A DNA stretch of 44,515 nucleotides from Planctomycetota bacterium (lineage in GTDB: Bacteria; Planctomycetota; Brocadiia; Brocadiales; Brocadiaceae): positions 1-44,515 of the forward strand of contig VGXV01000030.1 of NCBI GenBank assembly GCA_016873165.1. Direction: 5' to 3'. The number at the start of each line of letters is the position of its first letter. Position 1 is the stretch's first letter. A program made the translations under genes and the position numbers. The notes beneath the pieces are model-generated. The model had not been told where the DNA came from, made no database searches, and worked only from the letters and a program-made list of their open reading frames with translations. Shown piece after piece: positions 3,112-41,423 of the stretch.

Positions 3112-4008
3112 ATGTCAAGAATTAATACAAACATTAATGCGTTAAATGCGTTGAGGTCGTTAAACGACATCAACTCACAGCTTTCGGTTTCGCAACTGAG
3201 GTTGGCAACGGGTAAGAGGATCAATAATGCAGCCGACGATGCTGCCGGATACACGATTGCCAAGAAATTTAATGCCAGGTCACAAGGGTTGGGTCAGTCT
3301 TTGGCAAACATAGGATCGGCCAAGAATCTTATGTCTGTTGCGGAAGGACACCTGAATAATATTTTGGACATTTTAACCCAGATGAAGACAAAGGCAACAC
3401 AGGCGGCCGATGATTCGCTGGGTACTTCGGAGCGTAGCGCTATCCAGGCGGAACTGTCGGCGTTGGCAACACAAATTGATCTTGAAGTTACCCAGGCGAC
3501 ATGGAACTCTAATTCGATATTTGGCACGGGAAATTCAACCTCAGGGTCGGCAAGCAGCGTACAGTTTAAATTCCAGATAGGCGCCGGAGCAAGCAGCACG
3601 AATGATGTATTGAAGTTTGATTTATTGAGGAAGGCAAATGTAAGCCTTGAGTCGGGAAATACGAACTTTAAGGCTAGCGGATTGAGAGTAAGTGTTGGTA
3701 CAGCGGGCAGGGCAGTTACTTCTTCGGCATCCGCACAGTCATTGATGGGAAAAATAGACACAGCCATTGCGGATGTATCAGAGGCATTGAGTTATATAGG
3801 TTCCGTGGTAAACAGATTAACGTATCAGGAAACCAGTTTGACGGTAGCAAGGACGAATACAGAGGCAGCAAGGAGCCGCATTGAGGATGCAGATATGGCA
3901 TACGAGCAATTACAGGCGACAAAGTTGCAGATATTGCAACAGACTGCAAGTGCGATGTTGGCGCAGGCGAATGCAGGTCCTCAGTCTATCTTACAGCTCT
4001 TCGGTTAA
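3112..4008 (+). CDS. fliC: Flagellin, tandem copy 1
   Basis: Structural subunit of the flagellar filament, 298 residues. It has the conserved N-terminal D0/D1 helices (MSRINTNINALNALRSL, ATGKRINNAADDAAG) and C-terminal helices (SRIEDADMAYE, QILQQTASAMLAQAN). Only a short variable centre separates them (~150-200), so this is a compact flagellin without large surface domains. The start ATG is fixed by AAGGAGG 7 nt upstream. The protein differs from the second copy at only one position that I can see (Ser/Thr near residue 22). A strong terminator follows, so it can be a one-gene unit. Export is by the flagellar type III system, with FliS (7921-8232) as probable chaperone. Confidence 0.97.
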   Translation: MSRINTNINALNALRSLNDINSQLSVSQLRLATGKRINNAADDAAGYTIAKKFNARSQGLGQSLANIGSAKNLMSVAEGHLNNILDILTQMKTKATQAADDSLGTSERSAIQAELSALATQIDLEVTQATWNSNSIFGTGNSTSGSASSVQFKFQIGAGASSTNDVLKFDLLRKANVSLESGNTNFKASGLRVSVGTAGRAVTSSASAQSLMGKIDTAIADVSEALSYIGSVVNRLTYQETSLTVARTNTEAARSRIEDADMAYEQLQATKLQILQQTASAMLAQANAGPQSILQLFG

Positions 4009-4554: not shown

Positions 4555-5451
4555 ATGTCAAGGATTAATACAAACATTAATGCGTTAAATGCGTTGAGGT
4601 CATTAAATGACATCAATACGCAGCTTTCGGTCTCACAGTTGAGGCTGGCAACGGGTAAGAGGATCAACAATGCAGCCGACGATGCTGCCGGTTACACGAT
4701 TGCCAAGAAATTTAATGCCAGGTCGCAGGGGTTGGGTCAGTCTTTGGCAAATATAGGATCGGCCAAGAATCTTATGTCTGTTGCGGAAGGACACCTGAAT
4801 AATATTTTGGACATTTTAACCCAGATGAAGACAAAGGCAACGCAGGCGGCCGATGATTCGCTGGGTACTTCGGAGCGTAGCGCTATCCAGGCGGAACTGT
4901 CAGCGTTGGCAACACAAATTGATCTTGAAGTTACCCAGGCGACATGGAACTCTAATTCGATATTTGGCACGGGAAATTCAACCTCAGGGTCGGCAAGCAG
5001 CGTACAGTTTAAATTCCAGATAGGCGCCGGAGCAAGCAGCACGAATGATGTATTGAAGTTTGATTTATTGAGGAAGGCAAATGTAAGCCTTGAGTCGGGA
5101 AATACGAACTTTAAGGCTAGCGGATTGAGAGTAAGTGTTGGTACAGCGGGCAGGGCAGTTACTTCTTCGGCATCCGCACAGTCATTGATGGGAAAAATAG
5201 ACACAGCCATTGCGGATGTATCAGAGGCATTGAGTTATATAGGTTCCGTGGTAAACAGATTAACGTATCAGGAAACCAGTTTGACGGTAGCAAGGACGAA
5301 TACAGAGGCAGCAAGGAGCCGCATTGAGGATGCAGATATGGCATACGAGCAATTACAGGCGACAAAGTTGCAGATATTGCAACAGACTGCAAGTGCGATG
5401 TTGGCGCAGGCGAATGCAGGTCCTCAGTCTATCTTACAGCTCTTCGGTTAA
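4555..5451 (+). CDS. fliC: Flagellin, tandem copy 2
   Basis: 298-residue flagellin, essentially the same protein as copy 1, with the same N- and C-terminal filament helices and short centre. At DNA level the differences from copy 1 are scattered over roughly the first 340 nt and nearly all silent. The remaining ~560 nt of the gene and the terminator stem looked identical when compared line by line. That mosaic suggests recent gene conversion of the 3' two-thirds. The hairpin after it has no T-tract, so transcription may continue into fliD 170 bp downstream. Confidence 0.97.
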   Translation: MSRINTNINALNALRSLNDINTQLSVSQLRLATGKRINNAADDAAGYTIAKKFNARSQGLGQSLANIGSAKNLMSVAEGHLNNILDILTQMKTKATQAADDSLGTSERSAIQAELSALATQIDLEVTQATWNSNSIFGTGNSTSGSASSVQFKFQIGAGASSTNDVLKFDLLRKANVSLESGNTNFKASGLRVSVGTAGRAVTSSASAQSLMGKIDTAIADVSEALSYIGSVVNRLTYQETSLTVARTNTEAARSRIEDADMAYEQLQATKLQILQQTASAMLAQANAGPQSILQLFG

Positions 5452-11703: not shown

Positions 11704-12600
11704 TTATTGAAAGAGTTGCATGATTATCTGAGGGCTGGCATTTGCCTGGGCAAGCATAGCGCTGGCTGTTTGTTGTAATATCTGCAGCTTGGTTGCCTCT
11801 AATTGTTCATATGCCATATCTGCATCCTCAATTCTGCTTCTTGCTGAGTCTGTATTCGTCCTCGCTACCGTCAAACTGGTTTCCTGATACGTTAATCTGT
11901 TTACCACCGAACCAATATAGCTCAATGCTTCTGATACATCCGCAATGGCGGTGTCTATATTGCTCATTAATGCACGGGCTGATGCGTTTGAACTAACTGC
12001 CCTGCCTGCTGTTCCAATGCTTACTCTCAATCCATTAGCCTTAAAGTTCGTATTTCCCGACTCAAGGCTTACATTTGCCTTCCTTAATAAATCAAATTTC
12101 AATACATCATTTGTGCTGCTGCTTCCCGATCCTATTTGGAAGCGGAACATCACACTACTTGCCGATCCTGTTGTAGAATTTCCCGTGCCGAATATTGAAT
12201 TTGAATTCCATGTGGCCTGATTAACTTCCAGATCAATTTGTGATCCTAATTGTTCTAATTCTGCTTTTATGGCATTACGTTCCTGGGTACCAAGCGAATC
12301 GTCTGCCGCTTGTGTGACCTTTGTTTTCATCTGTGTTAAAATGTCAAGAATGTTGTTCAGATGGCCTTCTGCAACAGCCATAAGGTTCTTTGCAGAACCT
12401 ATATTCGCAAGGGCTTGTCCAAGACCCTGTGAACGTGCATTAAATTTTTTGGCGATAGAAAATCCTGCTGCATCGTCTGCGGCAGAGTTAATTCTTTTAC
12501 CGGTGGCCAGTCTCAATTGACCTACAGATAAGCGACCGTTAATATCATTTAATGATTTTAATGCATTTAAAGCGCCGATATTTGTATTAATTCTACTCAT
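11704..12600 (-). CDS. fliC: Flagellin, third and diverged copy
   Basis: 298 residues, the same length and plan as the tandem flagellins, but with many substitutions (for example KSLNDINGRLSVGQ, QERNAIKAELEQLG, and ASPQIIMQLFQ at the end). The terminal helices are conserved, so it should co-polymerise. The ribosome site AACAAGGAGG lies 8 nt upstream of ATG 12600 and keeps the ACAAGGA motif, but the rest of the leader shared by copies 1 and 2 is absent. It starts 44 nt after the HD-GYP gene, so it may be read from that gene's sigma-54 promoter. This would give it different control from the other two. Confidence 0.96.
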   Translation of the reverse strand: MSRINTNIGALNALKSLNDINGRLSVGQLRLATGKRINSAADDAAGFSIAKKFNARSQGLGQALANIGSAKNLMAVAEGHLNNILDILTQMKTKVTQAADDSLGTQERNAIKAELEQLGSQIDLEVNQATWNSNSIFGTGNSTTGSASSVMFRFQIGSGSSSTNDVLKFDLLRKANVSLESGNTNFKANGLRVSIGTAGRAVSSNASARALMSNIDTAIADVSEALSYIGSVVNRLTYQETSLTVARTNTDSARSRIEDADMAYEQLEATKLQILQQTASAMLAQANASPQIIMQLFQ

Positions 12601-30841: not shown

Positions 30842-32026
30842 TCATACAGTAACAAGATCGGTAAATAATCCGATTTTGTACAATTCTTGTCGTATTTCGC
30901 TGATATACATAGGATTCACTATAATGATGGCATCGGGTTTGTATTTTTGCAAAAAATCAGGGTTCACTATTTTTTGTCCGGTGCCTGCCATATACATCCC
31001 TTGTTTGTAAGGGTTTGTATCTACTACAAATTCAATTTCATCCTGAATAGCGAGTGATGTGAGGAATGCAACGCTTTCAGAGTCCGATCCCCAGATAACT
31101 ACTTTACGGTTATCCTGTTTCATTTGCTGCAATTTGTTCTTCCAGTAATTGATTTTCTTTTTATACGTATTCAGAAAATGAACTACGGAATTTAGCGCAT
31201 CTTCCGGATATTCTTCAATATCCAAAACAGTTGTATTTTGGCATTTGCCTGGTTTTGCTTCCAGCATTATGTATTGATTATTGTAATCCTTCCATATATT
31301 GCACACATCAAAACCGCATTTTCTGAAAAGACGGGCAAGAGATCCCGGGCTGAAATACGAACAGTGTTCGTAATAAATATTCCAGAATGCCTGTTTGTGT
31401 AAAGTATGCATAATATCGTGAACCTGAAAAAAAATAATGGTGTCTTTTCGGTTTCCTAGTGTGTTTCGGATAGTATGCAGGAATTTTGATGTGGAATAAA
31501 TATGTTCCAGTGTCATCCTGCAGCAAATTAAATCACTCTGGTAATGGGCATATTTTTCAGAATAGAAATCATTGATAAAAGTAATTGTCGTATCTTTTTT
31601 CTCAGAATTTTGGCCGTTCATATAATCCGGATCGAAACCAATACCGTAATTTCTGCCGGTATTGCAGAGAATGGAAAGAAATTCACCTCTTCCGCAACCG
31701 ATTTCGATGATTTTTTTGTTGTGCAAATCATATCGTTCAATTAAATAATGTGCCATGTGTTTCTCGAAAACATTACATGTCCGGAAAAATTCATGGCTTT
31801 CTTCGTATGCAGGAAACGATTCTTGTTTATCCGGCTCATACTCTATGTTTGAGATAAATCCGCATGTTTTGCAAAATCCCAAAGATATGCTTCCTTTTTG
31901 ATCGTTTATTGCGATTTCCCGGGTGGGTATGAGCGGCAGGCGGTGTGTGGGAACATGGTGTATTTCATAAAAAACCTGTATATCAAATGAATCGCAGCCT
32001 GGACATTTATTATTATTAATCTTCAT
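30842..32026 (-). CDS. SAM-dependent sugar C-methyltransferase-like protein
   Basis: 394 residues with the three-part layout of NDP-hexose C-methyltransferases. There is an N-terminal zinc motif (CPGC at ~9-12 and CKTC at ~53-56). A Rossmann SAM-binding domain (~95-260) has IIEIGCGRGEFL. A C-terminal nucleotide-sugar-type domain (~285-390) has VVIWGSDSESVAFL. The family methylates a carbon of a nucleotide-linked deoxysugar. Here it lies between two PilZ-containing genes in one strand run, with gaps of 82 and 51 nt. A link to surface or flagellar sugars is suggested by the nearby polysaccharide genes but not shown. Confidence 0.82.
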   Translation of the reverse strand: MKINNNKCPGCDSFDIQVFYEIHHVPTHRLPLIPTREIAINDQKGSISLGFCKTCGFISNIEYEPDKQESFPAYEESHEFFRTCNVFEKHMAHYLIERYDLHNKKIIEIGCGRGEFLSILCNTGRNYGIGFDPDYMNGQNSEKKDTTITFINDFYSEKYAHYQSDLICCRMTLEHIYSTSKFLHTIRNTLGNRKDTIIFFQVHDIMHTLHKQAFWNIYYEHCSYFSPGSLARLFRKCGFDVCNIWKDYNNQYIMLEAKPGKCQNTTVLDIEEYPEDALNSVVHFLNTYKKKINYWKNKLQQMKQDNRKVVIWGSDSESVAFLTSLAIQDEIEFVVDTNPYKQGMYMAGTGQKIVNPDFLQKYKPDAIIIVNPMYISEIRQELYKIGLFTDLVTV

Positions 32027-32108: not shown

Positions 32109-33644
32109 TTATACAGGAGATTCCTTTGTGGTATTCATTAACAAGCAGAAGAGTTGTTTCCAATTATTATGCCCATCTACTATCTCGGCGCCAATTTCAT
32201 ATCTGTTTTTATGGATTATTCTGTTATGGGCAATTCTGACGGAAAAGGTCGCAGGCATGTAAACTCCAGAATCAACCACTGCCCGGCAGGTGTATATTTC
32301 GTCCAATTCCGGTTTGAAATTGAGCTCTCCTTTAAATCCCCCCTGGCTGATATCTCCGATTGCGCAGATTCTCCAGTCATCCTCCGTTATTTTGATCTCG
32401 AAAAATTGTATATTATTAATGCCTTTATCAACTTTTAGTAATGTTTTGAATCGGGTAATCTGCCGGTTTACATTTTTGTAAAGCAGTAAATTAATCTCTT
32501 CTCTGTTTAACAATGAAGTATATTTTGCTTTCTTTTCATTCTGTTGGACAGGTTGATCATCTAATGTTGTATTGACGACTCTGTTTCGTCCGCATGATTT
32601 GCCGATGTAGAGGTATTTATCAGCAGCGGACAATATCTGTTTTACCGAATCCCCATCCTCCGGATAGCAGGCTATCCCGGCAGTTATTGTCACGCACTCG
32701 ATTTTCCCTTCAGTGATCTCCAGGGATAAAATTCTTTTTACTGTCTCTCTGAGTTTGTCAATGACGAGAGTCGCGTTGTTTTTATCCATGCCCGGGAGGA
32801 GTATCGCAAATTCTTCGCCGCCATATCTGCTCACAATATCACTGTACCGAACATTGGATTTCAGGATGTATGCCAATTTTTTTAAAATTTCATCCCCAAA
32901 CAGATGCCCATAGGTATCGTTGTAATATTTAAAATAGTCTATATCAATCATAGCAATTGAAAAATTCATGCTGTGGCGTTTTGCTTTACTATGCTCGTGA
33001 TGGCAACTGTCGAAAAAATATTTTCTCTGGTAAAGCATGGTGAGGTCGTCGTACATTGCGCCTTTTTCAGCTTTTTCGTAGAGTTCGATCCTTTCAATGG
33101 TATTCGCAATATTCAATGCTATGATAGCAAGTAAATCCTTATCTTCTTCCGTAAATGCATTTACTTCCTTTTTATGTATGTTTAATAAACCCAAAATTCG
33201 GTGATTTTTTGTTTGTAAAGGCAAAGACAAAAATGATCCGGTATTTTCCAGCTTGCCTTTATAGAACAGTTGCTTGTTTTCTTTGCTTATGTCATTTAAT
33301 AAAAAAGGTTCCCCCGTCTGAGCGGCAATACAGGAATATTCCTCGCCTTTTTTGAAGGAGATGTCTTTCACTGTTTCAAATGTGTCGCCCCCTGTTTTTA
33401 ATATGGTTAATTCATCATTATTTCCATTACTCAACATGAAACAAAATTCATTAATATCAAGATTGTTTTTCAAAAAGGTTGTTGTGTATTCAAATAACTG
33501 GTCAATTTTTGTTGATAAATTCAGGTTTTCGTTTAACAAGTAAAGCAGATAAAGAGGAAACGGTCCTTCGATGGTTTTGTTTGTCACATTCATATCAGTA
33601 ATTAATTCCCTGTAATGGTGATTGATGTGGTTATTTAATATCAT
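32109..33644 (-). CDS. GAF-GGDEF-PilZ fusion protein
   Basis: 511 residues. A GAF domain (~35-190) has SCIAAQTGEPFLLNDI. A GGDEF domain (~205-370) has GGEEF at ~275-279 and an RYSD I-site five residues before it. After a linker comes a PilZ-like domain (~385-505) with RxxxR (RQITR, ~391) and DISQGG (~429-434), followed by an IAHN/EIGAEIVD pattern. One chain thus makes c-di-GMP and can bind it twice, at the I-site and the PilZ site. It heads the strand run with the methyltransferase and stand-alone PilZ. ATG 33644 has no clear ribosome site; an in-frame ATG 17 codons on is possible. Confidence 0.85.
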   Translation of the reverse strand: MILNNHINHHYRELITDMNVTNKTIEGPFPLYLLYLLNENLNLSTKIDQLFEYTTTFLKNNLDINEFCFMLSNGNNDELTILKTGGDTFETVKDISFKKGEEYSCIAAQTGEPFLLNDISKENKQLFYKGKLENTGSFLSLPLQTKNHRILGLLNIHKKEVNAFTEEDKDLLAIIALNIANTIERIELYEKAEKGAMYDDLTMLYQRKYFFDSCHHEHSKAKRHSMNFSIAMIDIDYFKYYNDTYGHLFGDEILKKLAYILKSNVRYSDIVSRYGGEEFAILLPGMDKNNATLVIDKLRETVKRILSLEITEGKIECVTITAGIACYPEDGDSVKQILSAADKYLYIGKSCGRNRVVNTTLDDQPVQQNEKKAKYTSLLNREEINLLLYKNVNRQITRFKTLLKVDKGINNIQFFEIKITEDDWRICAIGDISQGGFKGELNFKPELDEIYTCRAVVDSGVYMPATFSVRIAHNRIIHKNRYEIGAEIVDGHNNWKQLFCLLMNTTKESPV

Positions 33645-34260: not shown

Positions 34261-35304
34261 GTGGCAAGGGCTATTTGTTTCAGGGCGAGAGTTGAGAAAT
34301 TGGTAATGATACAGAAACAGCAAAGCTCAATTCAAAAAATGAATATTATTGTTAACAGTTTTATCCCTGTCACGTTGAATACGATCCGGGAAAATTCAAA
34401 TATTGGATGTGACATGTTTTTAGAAAGAAACGATAAGCATAATACGTATTACGTATTGTATGGAGACAGGAAAGCAATTATCAAAGCAAACAACATAGAA
34501 CAGTTGAAAAAACGGGGCATTGATACCCTGTTTATCCGTAAGAAAGATCAAACAAATTATTTCAGATATATTGAAGCGAACATAACCGGATTTATCAATG
34601 ATGAACGGATAAGCGCCAAGGTTAAAGCGCAAACCATATATAACGTTGCCAAAGTGATTGCAATGGATTTGTTTGAGAGCAGGCATATCAGCAACGAAGT
34701 GAAAAGGTCTAAAAACTGGGCATTGCACACTGTTGAATTTCTTTTAAGAAAACGTGAGGCTTCTTCAATGATGCTGCATATGATATCGCATAATTATAGC
34801 ACTTTTACGCATTCTGTGGATGTTGCGGTACTGGGGCTGTTATTCTCAAAATATTTAGGATTTTATGATGAAGAAATACATGACCTTGTTGTTGGATTGT
34901 TGCTCCATGATATTGGAAAAACGAAGATTAACAAAAAGATAATTAACAAAACCGATGCATTGACAGATATGGAGTATGCGTCGATGAGAAAGCATGTGGA
35001 AGAAGGCGTAAAAATGCTTAACGAGACCGGCGGGCTCACCACAGAGTCGTTATATCCTGTAGCATTGCATCATGAAAGAGAAGATGGCATGGGATATCCG
35101 AAAGGATTAAAAGGAGGTGATATTCATAAATATGGCAAAATCGCAAGAATTATTGATGTATACAATGCATTGACGACACAACGGTCGTATTCTATGGCCA
35201 AAAGCCCGTTTTCGGCATTAGAAATAATGGGGCGAAAGATGGGAGAAGGATTTGATAAAAACTATTTCAGAGAATACGTCCTGTTTCTGGGAAAAACAGG
35301 ATAA
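34261..35304 (+). CDS. HD-GYP domain cyclic-di-GMP phosphodiesterase
   Basis: 347 residues: a ~130-residue N-terminal module (~35-165) without a named family, then a complete HD-GYP domain (~170-340). Signature residues are all present: HSVDVA, LLHDIGK, HVEEGV, HHEREDGMGYPKGL and RIIDVYNALTTQRSY. It should hydrolyse c-di-GMP. The N-terminal module (CDMFLERN, IRKKDQTNYFRYIEANI) is clearly related to the linker of the HD-GYP at 12645-14354. The start is uncertain: GTG 34261 is taken, but ATG 34306 would fit as well. It is divergent from the GGDEF-PilZ gene, so opposite activities share one regulatory gap. Confidence 0.88.
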   Translation: MARAICFRARVEKLVMIQKQQSSIQKMNIIVNSFIPVTLNTIRENSNIGCDMFLERNDKHNTYYVLYGDRKAIIKANNIEQLKKRGIDTLFIRKKDQTNYFRYIEANITGFINDERISAKVKAQTIYNVAKVIAMDLFESRHISNEVKRSKNWALHTVEFLLRKREASSMMLHMISHNYSTFTHSVDVAVLGLLFSKYLGFYDEEIHDLVVGLLLHDIGKTKINKKIINKTDALTDMEYASMRKHVEEGVKMLNETGGLTTESLYPVALHHEREDGMGYPKGLKGGDIHKYGKIARIIDVYNALTTQRSYSMAKSPFSALEIMGRKMGEGFDKNYFREYVLFLGKTG

Positions 35305-35781: not shown

Positions 35782-37232
35782 ATGCTAAAAGAATATCATG
35801 TATTTTTTAGAAGACTGATGATTTGCTTCGATTTGTTTATCGTTGCAATAACTTTTTTGCTGACGTCGTTTTTAACCGGCAATTACGATGAAGTTATTAA
35901 ACAATTTGGCAGCTATCTCATAATTTTACCCGCGCTGTTCAGTGTATGGGGAATATTTCTGCATAATTTTGGCATGTATGAATCTTTCAGAACAAAGAGT
36001 ATCACCGAAGTGCTGTTTCCCGTAATAGAGACTGCTTTGGTTGGAGGAGGGCTTCTCGGTAGTTTTGTGTTTATTGCAAAAATTCAAACAATAACCAGTG
36101 AGCAGTTGTTTTACTCTTTTTCTTTGACAGCGATAGTATTATGCAGTGAAAAGGTATTGCTCTTGCTTTTTCTGCACTACCAGCGAAAAAAAGGATTCAA
36201 TACGAAAAATGTTTTAATCGTCGGAACCGGCAAAAGGGCGCAGCATTTTATAAATACAATCAATAAGAATATAGAATGGGGCATTAAAATTATAGGCCTT
36301 GTGGATAACGATACTGCAAAAGTAAATAGTGTGGTATGTGGCGCAAAAGTAATAGGCATTGTAAAAGACATTCCCGCGATAATTCACAATAATGTTGTTG
36401 ACGAGGTTATGTTTGTCGTGCCCCGGCTGTGGTTAAATAAGGTTGAAGAGATGATTCGATACTTATGTGATATAGAAGGATTAAAAGTGAGCGTTGCCGT
36501 GGATTTATTTACATTGAATCTGGCAAGGACAAAATACAGCCACATTACTCCGGATACCATCGGCAAGACAAACAGTTATCTGTCGGAGTTCCCTTTGCTT
36601 ATTTTTGAAAGCGCTCCTGACAAGTTATTGCAACTGTTTATTAAGCGTGTTATAGACATAATCTTTTCCGGAATAGCGCTTGTCTGTTTGCTTCCCGTGT
36701 TTGCCATTACGCGGCAATCGCAATTAAAACAACGTCGGAAGGCCCTTTGTTTTTCACCCAGGAAAGGAGCAGTCTGAACGGAAGAATATTCAAATTATAC
36801 AAGTTCAGAACGATGATCGTTGATGCAGAGAAAAAGCTGGCGGAATTACTGAAAAACAATGAAATGCGCGGCCCTGTCTTTAAAATGGAAAATGATCCGA
36901 GGGTGACAAAAATCGGAAGAATTCTGCGCAAATATAGTATTGATGAGTTTCCTCAATTTTGGAATGTATTTAAGGGTGATATGAGTTTGGTCGGACCTCG
37001 GCCTCCCATTCCGATGGAAGTGGATAAATACGAACCCTGGCATAGAAGAAGGCTGAGCATGCGGCCAGGCTTAACCTGCATATGGCAAATGTCAGGAAGA
37101 AATAAAATTACTGATTTTGACGAATGGATGCGGCTGGATCTGGAATATATTGACAATTGGTCGCTCCGGCTGGATTTTAAAATACTTTTCGGAACAGTGC
37201 CTGCGGTATTGGCAGGATCAGGAGCAAAATAA
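35782..37232 (+). pseudogene. Polyprenyl glycosylphosphotransferase (WbaP/WcaJ-like), frameshifted
   Basis: This enzyme starts exopolysaccharide synthesis by placing a sugar-phosphate on undecaprenyl phosphate. The first frame (35782-36777) gives four N-terminal membrane helices, a CoA-binding-like Rossmann domain (NVLIVGTGKRAQHFI) and the helix before the catalytic domain, then runs into unrelated residues and a stop. The second frame (from ~36714 to 37232) continues as IKTTSEGPLFFTQERSSLNG, FKLYKFRTM, the SIDEFPQFWNV and GPRPP motifs, to the end. The join is at 36709-36714 (ATTACGCGGCA), where an extra CG dinucleotide would explain the shift. Repaired, the protein would be ~482 residues, normal. 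It could be a real mutation, a sequencing error, or less likely programmed frameshifting. Confidence 0.85.
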
Positions 37233-40179: not shown

Positions 40180-40806
40180 ATGAACAGATCAAATAATTAT
40201 GATTTTCAGGAAGTAATAAATGACGCGGCGTTTATCTTTTATCGTCCGGAAAATGGAAAGGTTTCCTCGAATGTATTCTATAGCCCGGCGGCGATGGATA
40301 TTATCATGAGGGCGGAACCGTCCAGGAAGAAGGGGAAAGAAATTTCTCCTGACATATCGTTATTTTGTGATAAATGGAAAAAACTAATGGATAAGAAATG
40401 TGAGGAAATCGGGAGCGAATTGGATGGAAATGGAGAACAGTCTTGTTTTATTGATGTAATAAAGAGCCAGAAAAGGCTATATGCAGTGCGGGGAACAGTG
40501 CTTTCAGATTCGTCGGAGAATGCAACCCGGAATGAATGGCCGCATTTGTTCATATTGGACAGGACGTATTCGGATCAGGCAAACATTGCCAAAAGTTTCC
40601 GCAAATGGCACCTGAACAAACGGGAGCAGGAAATTGTCCAGTTGCTTCTTGATGATCACAGCAACAAGGAGATCGCTCAGGGTCTTAATTTAAGCTGCAA
40701 TACGATCAAAGGATACTTGAAACTTCTTATGCGAAAGCTTGATGTTAACAGCAGGGCAGGGATTATATCAAAGCTTCTGTATCTTAACAATCTTAGCGTT
40801 AATTAA
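40180..40806 (+). CDS. LuxR-type transcription regulator, tandem copy 1
   Basis: 208 residues: an N-terminal PAS-like sensor part (~15-135: DAAFIFYRPENGKVSSN, CFIDVIKSQKRLYAV, LFILDRTY) and a C-terminal LuxR/GerE helix-turn-helix (~143-202: LNKREQEIVQLLL, NKEIAQGLNLSCNTIKGYL). No receiver domain is present, so the input is probably a ligand or protein bound by the PAS-like part. It follows the Wzc-like gene by 45 nt, so it may regulate the exopolysaccharide genes; that is inference. The next gene is a close paralogue 8 nt away. AGGGGAAA lies 7 nt upstream of ATG 40180. Confidence 0.85.
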   Translation: MNRSNNYDFQEVINDAAFIFYRPENGKVSSNVFYSPAAMDIIMRAEPSRKKGKEISPDISLFCDKWKKLMDKKCEEIGSELDGNGEQSCFIDVIKSQKRLYAVRGTVLSDSSENATRNEWPHLFILDRTYSDQANIAKSFRKWHLNKREQEIVQLLLDDHSNKEIAQGLNLSCNTIKGYLKLLMRKLDVNSRAGIISKLLYLNNLSVN

Positions 40807-40814
40807 TCGTAACC

Positions 40815-41423
40815 ATGAATAGTACATTTAATTATTGCCCTCAGGGCATGGCAAAAAGTGCGGCATTTATATTCTATCGTCCGGGAAATGGAAAGGTTTC
40901 CTCAAATGTATTCTATAGCCCGGCGGCGATGGATATTATCATGAGGGCGAAACCGTCCGGGAAGAAAGAGAAGGAAGCTTTTCCAGATATATCGTTGTTT
41001 TGTGATAAATGGAAAAAACTAATGGATAAGAAATGTGAGGAAATCGGGAGCGAATCGGAAGGGAATGCAGGGCGGTCTTGTTTTATCGACATAATAAAGA
41101 GCCAGAAAAGGCTGTATGCAGTGCGGGGAACGGTGCTTTCAGATTCACCGGAGAATGTAAACCGGGATGAATGGCCGCATTTATTCATATTGAACAGGAC
41201 GTATTCGGATCAGGCAAATATTGCCAAAAGTTTCCGCAAATGGCACCTGAACAAACGGGAGCAGGAAATTGTCCAGTTGCTTCTTGACGACTACAGCAAC
41301 AAGGAAATCGCTCAACATCTTAATTTGAGCTGTAACACAATCAAGGGATATTTAAAACTTCTCATGCGAAAGCTCGATGTTAACAGCAGGGCGGGAATCA
41401 TATCAAAGCTCCTCACGGGGTAG
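40815..41423 (+). CDS. LuxR-type transcription regulator, tandem copy 2
   Basis: 202 residues, the same PAS-like plus LuxR helix-turn-helix layout as the preceding gene, and highly similar from ~residue 15 to the end. The recognition helix region differs little (NKEIAQHLNLSCNTIKGYL). The first ~14 residues are unrelated between the copies, and there is no clear ribosome site before ATG 40815, so translation probably depends on coupling across the 8-nt gap. The pair likely arose by tandem duplication and may form heterodimers. Confidence 0.85.
   Translation: MNSTFNYCPQGMAKSAAFIFYRPGNGKVSSNVFYSPAAMDIIMRAKPSGKKEKEAFPDISLFCDKWKKLMDKKCEEIGSESEGNAGRSCFIDIIKSQKRLYAVRGTVLSDSPENVNRDEWPHLFILNRTYSDQANIAKSFRKWHLNKREQEIVQLLLDDYSNKEIAQHLNLSCNTIKGYLKLLMRKLDVNSRAGIISKLLTG

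Follow-up and report, generated by a model that had tools for sequence, protein, structure and literature searches.

A predicted GAF-GGDEF-PilZ diguanylate cyclase of a planctomycete with a putative, lineage-specific PilZ subtype missed by Pfam

Introduction

In BcsA-type enzymes, a PilZ domain is fused C-terminal to an enzyme domain that does not make the PilZ ligand, and for BcsA the gating of the enzyme in cis by PilZ is established. PilZ domains acting as scaffolds that do not bind c-di-GMP are also on record (PMC10333796). With respect to single chains that combine PilZ with a GGDEF domain, one account describes PilZ-GGDEF proteins in saprophytic Leptospira, one per species in four saprophytes (PMC5932348), and with respect to GAF-GGDEF chains, the GAF loop of Dcsbis is described as blocking the I-site of the same protein (PMC4937426). 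A search of the open literature, with subscription journals outside its coverage, returned, among the papers listed, no title or abstract on a GAF-GGDEF-PilZ protein, and among those listed for anammox bacteria none was devoted to their cyclases or PilZ proteins.

We analysed a 44,515-nucleotide stretch of planctomycete DNA (the window), which encodes a protein of this kind. Because many enzymes share c-di-GMP, as exemplified by the 40 GGDEF matches in the genome to which the window belongs, it is a question how one synthase reaches one target. Our analysis supports the assignment of the window protein as a GAF-GGDEF-PilZ cyclase, predicted to be active, with a PilZ subtype that is missed by Pfam and is specific to its lineage.

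Results

The features of the locus are listed in Table 1. The linker between GGDEF and PilZ in the window protein includes some 25 consecutive residues with no counterpart in 8 of the other 11 fusions aligned.

Table 1. Position, strand and assignment of the fusion gene, its domains and its neighbours in the window.
Feature	Position	Strand	Basis or remark
GAF-GGDEF-PilZ protein, 511 aa	32109..33644	-	predicted to be a diguanylate cyclase; divergent PilZ at the C-terminus
GAF domain, residues 47-184	33093..33506	-	Pfam GAF_2 E 8e-10, GAF 9.9e-8
GGDEF domain, residues 196-355	32580..33059	-	Pfam E 9.6e-45; GGEEF 275-279, RxxD I-site 266-269
GGDEF-to-PilZ linker, residues 357-393	32466..32576	-	alignment of fusions
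Divergent PilZ domain (probable), residues 394-503	32136..32465	-	RxxxR 394-398, DISQGG 431-436, YxIG 482-485
Stand-alone PilZ, 127 aa	30407..30790	-	RxxxR (RKYKR) and NxSxxG (NLSLSG) intact
Class I methyltransferase	30842..32026	-	Methyltransf_23 and Methyltransf_14
HD-GYP protein, predicted c-di-GMP phosphodiesterase	34261..35304	+	divergent to fusion; HD_5 E 6.5e-21
Sugar-transferase-like gene, two overlapping frames	35782-36777 and 36747-37232	+	exopolysaccharide locus
Two adjacent LuxR-type (GerE) regulators	40180-40806 and 40815-41423	+	

The fusion passes the cut-offs of both GAF families (39.5 versus 28.6 bits for PF13185 and 33 versus 22.4 bits for PF01590) and scores 152.7 bits against the GGDEF family PF00990, for which the cut-off is 23.8 bits. 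The first-pass annotation had read a GGEEF cyclase with an RxxD I-site from the sequence, and both motifs were located, GGEEF starting at residue 275 and RYSD at residue 266; R266 and D269 of the I-site are kept in 15 of the 15 aligned GGDEF rows of the clade described below. The DxD, FKxxND and GD positions are likewise filled (D234, D236, F238, K239, N242, D243 and D251), with substrate and metal roles that we presume from PleD. The solved structures closest to it in sequence are those of GGDEF proteins, with 6zxm (named DgcR in Foldseek) in first place, and Foldseek matched the full-length AlphaFold model best to 4zmu, the GAF-GGDEF cyclase Dcsbis. With these residues intact, the GGDEF domain is predicted to synthesise c-di-GMP from GTP.

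The PilZ family PF07238 gave no match to the window fusion at E <= 1, an NCBIfam scan of the protein did not find PilZ, and a PDB profile search with the C-terminal domain gave no match. Among the 12 aligned fusion rows, five others had sub-threshold Pfam PilZ matches, the best with an E of 0.0018 (19 versus 22.5 bits), and the motif register was correct in the three of these that were inspected. The tail of the window protein carries RQITR (R394-R398), DISQGG from residue 431 and YEIG; a PilZ-like module had been proposed earlier from such motifs, and the proposal is now backed by profile-profile homology and by motifs that stay invariant across the 12 aligned fusions. In the hhalign comparison with 33 planctomycete PilZ domains, the match extended over 87 columns with P = 1.7e-4, and RxxxR, DxSxxG and YxIG were all co-linear in it. 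The score was 29.19, compared with a maximum of 18.96 among 200 column shuffles (0 of 200 as good) and with 10.97 for the reversed profile. The 33 domains comprised seven PilZ proteins of the same genome and 26 domains cut from longer frames (25 from the phylum and one from the same genome), with three stretches shorter than 90 aa omitted; an earlier hhalign run against just the seven own-genome proteins was insignificant (probability 0.4%). Alignments that combined the domain and two bona fide PilZ proteins were discarded, the DISQGG motif being misaligned in them. As a side observation on the PilZ proteins of this genome, one at L162 (810-2246, minus strand, G000:C12) carries PilZ ahead of two apparent receiver-like domains.

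The C-terminal regions of the 11 other fusions are 34 to 86% identical to that of the window protein, and the domain columns average 55% identity. All 12 rows, with the window protein among them, retain RxxxR, D431, G436 and both fixed residues of YxxG, and 10 retain S433, its exchanges being G in L037 and N in L018. The string RxxxR...(D/N)xSxxG...YxxG, a pattern composed after the tail had been seen, occurred in 9 of 200,000 tail shuffles. In a codon comparison within the genus, dN/dS was 0.066 and 0.109 for the PilZ segment versus 0.09 for GAF and 0.05 for GGDEF, values that are rough because synonymous differences amount to about one per site; the PilZ segment evolves under purifying selection. 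Taken together, we consider the C-terminal domain very probably a divergent PilZ, which would mean that a PilZ subtype bearing the full binding motif escapes Pfam.

Structure prediction, which the first-pass annotation had put forward as a check, was of low confidence in this region and spoke neither for nor against PilZ. AlphaFold of the C-terminal fragment alone gave a pLDDT of 39; the full-length model, for which eight relatives without the C-terminal domain were used, had a mean pLDDT of 68, with the C-terminal domain mostly below 50. Seven strands predicted from residue 414 to 503, where pLDDT was mostly below 50, are compatible with a beta barrel. Foldseek with the low-confidence fragment model gave no match at E <= 0.001 and no PilZ among the best 50 rows, and what it returned were lipocalin-like barrels with E of at least 0.3.

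The domain profile located 15 places in 10 of the 62 genomes of the order, all within the family of the window, and its search across the phylum gave matches in 8 of 392 genomes, again in that family alone. At 13 of the 15 places the domain is full length without stops, and 12 of these were aligned, L016 (G016:C112) being excluded from the fusion alignments for a run of N in its DNA. In all 12, the domain comes in-frame after the GGDEF of one clade (L018 starts within GAF, near a contig end). Of the two places left, one at L128 (1500-1760, G009:C35) is a decayed PilZ frame with four stops directly after a GAF-GGDEF gene, a fusion in the course of PilZ loss, and the one in G015:C72 is a 27-residue remnant. 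A search of genome contigs for related loci gave 80 GGDEF-protein loci, none with the PilZ subtype of the window, and no relative was found in the viral contigs searched.

In the tree, which omitted three long-branch GGDEF rows of the same genome (L203-L205) and four further matches from it (C9:31275, C52 twice and C4:100120), 15 GGDEF domains from fusions and their relatives form one clade with support of 100/100. Three clade members, namely L015, L029 and L034, are without PilZ and were kept out of two of the three fusion alignments; because the 15 domains form one clade, PilZ has probably been lost in these three, and since they lack it, PilZ is dispensable there. Their GGDEF residues look intact in L015 and L029. 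The first Asp of DxD (D234) is replaced in L034 by S (G010) and in two fusions of G004 by N (L014) and G (L033), both of which retain the I-site and PilZ despite the replacement. When one origin was imposed on all GGDEF-PilZ chains, lnL was 13.5 lower and p-AU was 0.07, so that the test does not reject it; a common origin of every such chain is nevertheless not the favoured history.

The first-pass annotation had further held that the GGDEF-PilZ order is much rarer than GGDEF-EAL, and its rarity was borne out in the same genome, in which 10 of the 11 EAL matches lie in a GGDEF frame, compared with a single GGDEF-PilZ chain. Across the phylum, GGDEF precedes PilZ in 4 of 27 frames of at least 350 aa (28 listed minus G081:C68), belonging to two families, among the matches listed, which cover 149 genomes.

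On the minus strand, the methyltransferase gene comes 82 bp after the fusion, and the stand-alone PilZ gene a further 51 bp after the methyltransferase. The stand-alone PilZ, a separate protein said earlier to end the same-strand run, was recovered by Pfam with 36.5 bits (cut-off, 22.5). All three genomes of the genus (G000, G001 and G002) have an orthologous stand-alone PilZ after the fusion on the same strand, and the copies in G001 and G002 are 73 and 66% identical to that of the window. The methyltransferase lies between the two in G000 and G002 and is not there in G001; a functional operon of three genes was therefore dismissed and the methyltransferase treated as incidental. Promoter-like and terminator-like sites around the locus were no more frequent than expected by chance. 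The fusions L031 and L036 of another genus have a divergent PilZ gene and a LuxR-type gene ahead of them, with the PilZ genes within 1.4 kb.

HHExxDGxGYP is the motif of HD-GYP proteins, and the translation of the gene on the other flank contains HHEREDGMGYP, which fits it. An HD-GYP gene is beside the fusion in L038, where it is 74% identical to that of the window and also divergent, and in L014, where it is 45% identical, codirectional and 22 bp upstream; none was seen near the fusion in L037, and as flank lengths vary among the loci, these are counts and not rates. Past the HD-GYP gene are exopolysaccharide-type genes including one for a Wzz-domain protein, the two LuxR-type regulators and a sigma-54 response regulator. 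The first-pass annotation had named neither the methyltransferase nor the HD-GYP gene and the exopolysaccharide-type genes. The family of the gene at 35782-37232 is presumably that of exopolysaccharide sugar transferases; it has probably undergone a frameshift or contains a sequencing error, since in both L037 (2149-3597) and L038 (9510-10958) the homologue is one continuous ORF of 482 aa. Exopolysaccharide genes were not seen at every fusion locus, L030 and L035 being examples.

Two further observations concern the rest of the window. The GerE domain of the 40180-41423 pair recurs in the genes immediately preceding the fusion in L031 and L036. Three ORFs (3112-4008, 4555-5451 and 11704-12600), of which one is on the minus strand and the others are on the plus strand, are each exactly 298 aa long and are probably copies of one mobile element; an antisense ORF of 157 aa overlaps each of the first two.

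Discussion

On balance, we lean towards the view that the window encodes a diguanylate cyclase that is gated by GAF and carries a divergent PilZ at its C-terminus, and that two PilZ domains would read its product on the spot, at an exopolysaccharide locus. The GAF domain may sense a ligand, dimerise the chain or do both, and GGDEF, judged from its intact residues, would make c-di-GMP under the restraint of the RxxD I-site. The PilZ of the same chain, with its conserved RxxxR/DxSxxG residues, would bind this product and change its shape or partner. The product might therewith be bound at two places on its own synthase, as the first-pass annotation had suggested, and the synthase would double as a receptor. 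With linkage as the guide, the adjoining stand-alone PilZ may read the product locally as well, the HD-GYP protein on the other flank may be the matching hydrolase, and from their position the adjoining exopolysaccharide genes are probably the output.

A different role for the domain would be that of a second product-feedback brake, or an activator, acting in cis on GGDEF beside the I-site and having no partner of its own. In 8 of the 12 fusions the linker is short and places PilZ directly behind GGDEF, the I-site is retained in every one of the 15 rows, and BcsA offers a precedent for PilZ gating in cis. We regard such a role as rather unlikely to be the main one, however, given that PilZ is gone from two copies with intact GGDEF residues and persists in the two G004 fusions without the DxD Asp. 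We favour a local read-out function for PilZ over that of a second brake only because those G004 fusions lost the Asp and yet keep both the I-site and PilZ.

It is a good deal less probable that the PilZ fold has ceased to bind c-di-GMP and acts instead as a module for protein-protein docking or as a scaffold. The domain has diverged past Pfam recognition, 2 of 12 fusions have another residue in place of S433, and non-binding PilZ scaffolds have a precedent (PMC10333796), but RxxxR, D431 and G436 stand invariant in a domain of which the columns average 55% identity. That the domain is not PilZ at all and the motifs are a coincidence in some other beta domain is very improbable, for although sequence databases gave no match over cut-off and the low-confidence models look lipocalin-like, the co-linear profile match beats its shuffled controls, the motif string is rare among tail shuffles and the motifs are conserved in 12 of 12 rows.

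Returning to the local read-out of the product by PilZ, a broader scheme can be offered tentatively, being in our estimate rather improbable as a whole: that this anammox-type family has its own self-reading c-di-GMP synthases with a built-in PilZ as the output, some of which became receptors by cyclase loss (G004) and others cyclases by PilZ loss (L015 and L029). If this is true, the conversion of a synthase to a receptor could be followed across related genomes. A chain that makes and reads its signal, together with a second reader, a hydrolase gene and exopolysaccharide-type genes, represents a compact candidate for local signalling, and the locus may bear on the aggregation of anammox bacteria.

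Several known systems share parts of this plan. BcsA-type fusions also have PilZ C-terminal to the enzyme (PMC10333796), and the window protein is unlike them in that its enzyme is predicted to make the PilZ ligand. Dcsbis (PA2771) of Pseudomonas aeruginosa has an N-terminal GAF, GGEEF and an RxxD I-site in common with the fusion, and differs in being described without PilZ (PMC4937426). The Leptospira proteins likewise join PilZ and GGDEF in one chain; no GAF is named for them, the likeness is one of description, and the chain order is indicated by the name alone (PMC5932348). The planctomycete protein L152 (2058-3494, minus strand, G157:C3) follows the same plan of sensor, enzyme and PilZ as GAF-HD-GYP-PilZ, although its enzyme is a hydrolase and not a cyclase, and its GAF and HD-GYP were assigned by eye. 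In other Planctomycetota, L143, L145, L156 and L166 have GGDEF and then a close C-terminal PilZ with RxxxR and N/DxSxxG, as in the window protein; in contrast to it, their PilZ is over the Pfam cut-off and their GGDEF falls outside its clade, although one shared origin is not rejected (p-AU 0.07). The GGDEF-PilZ architecture is therefore already known, and the window fusion is a lineage-specific version of an uncommon design.
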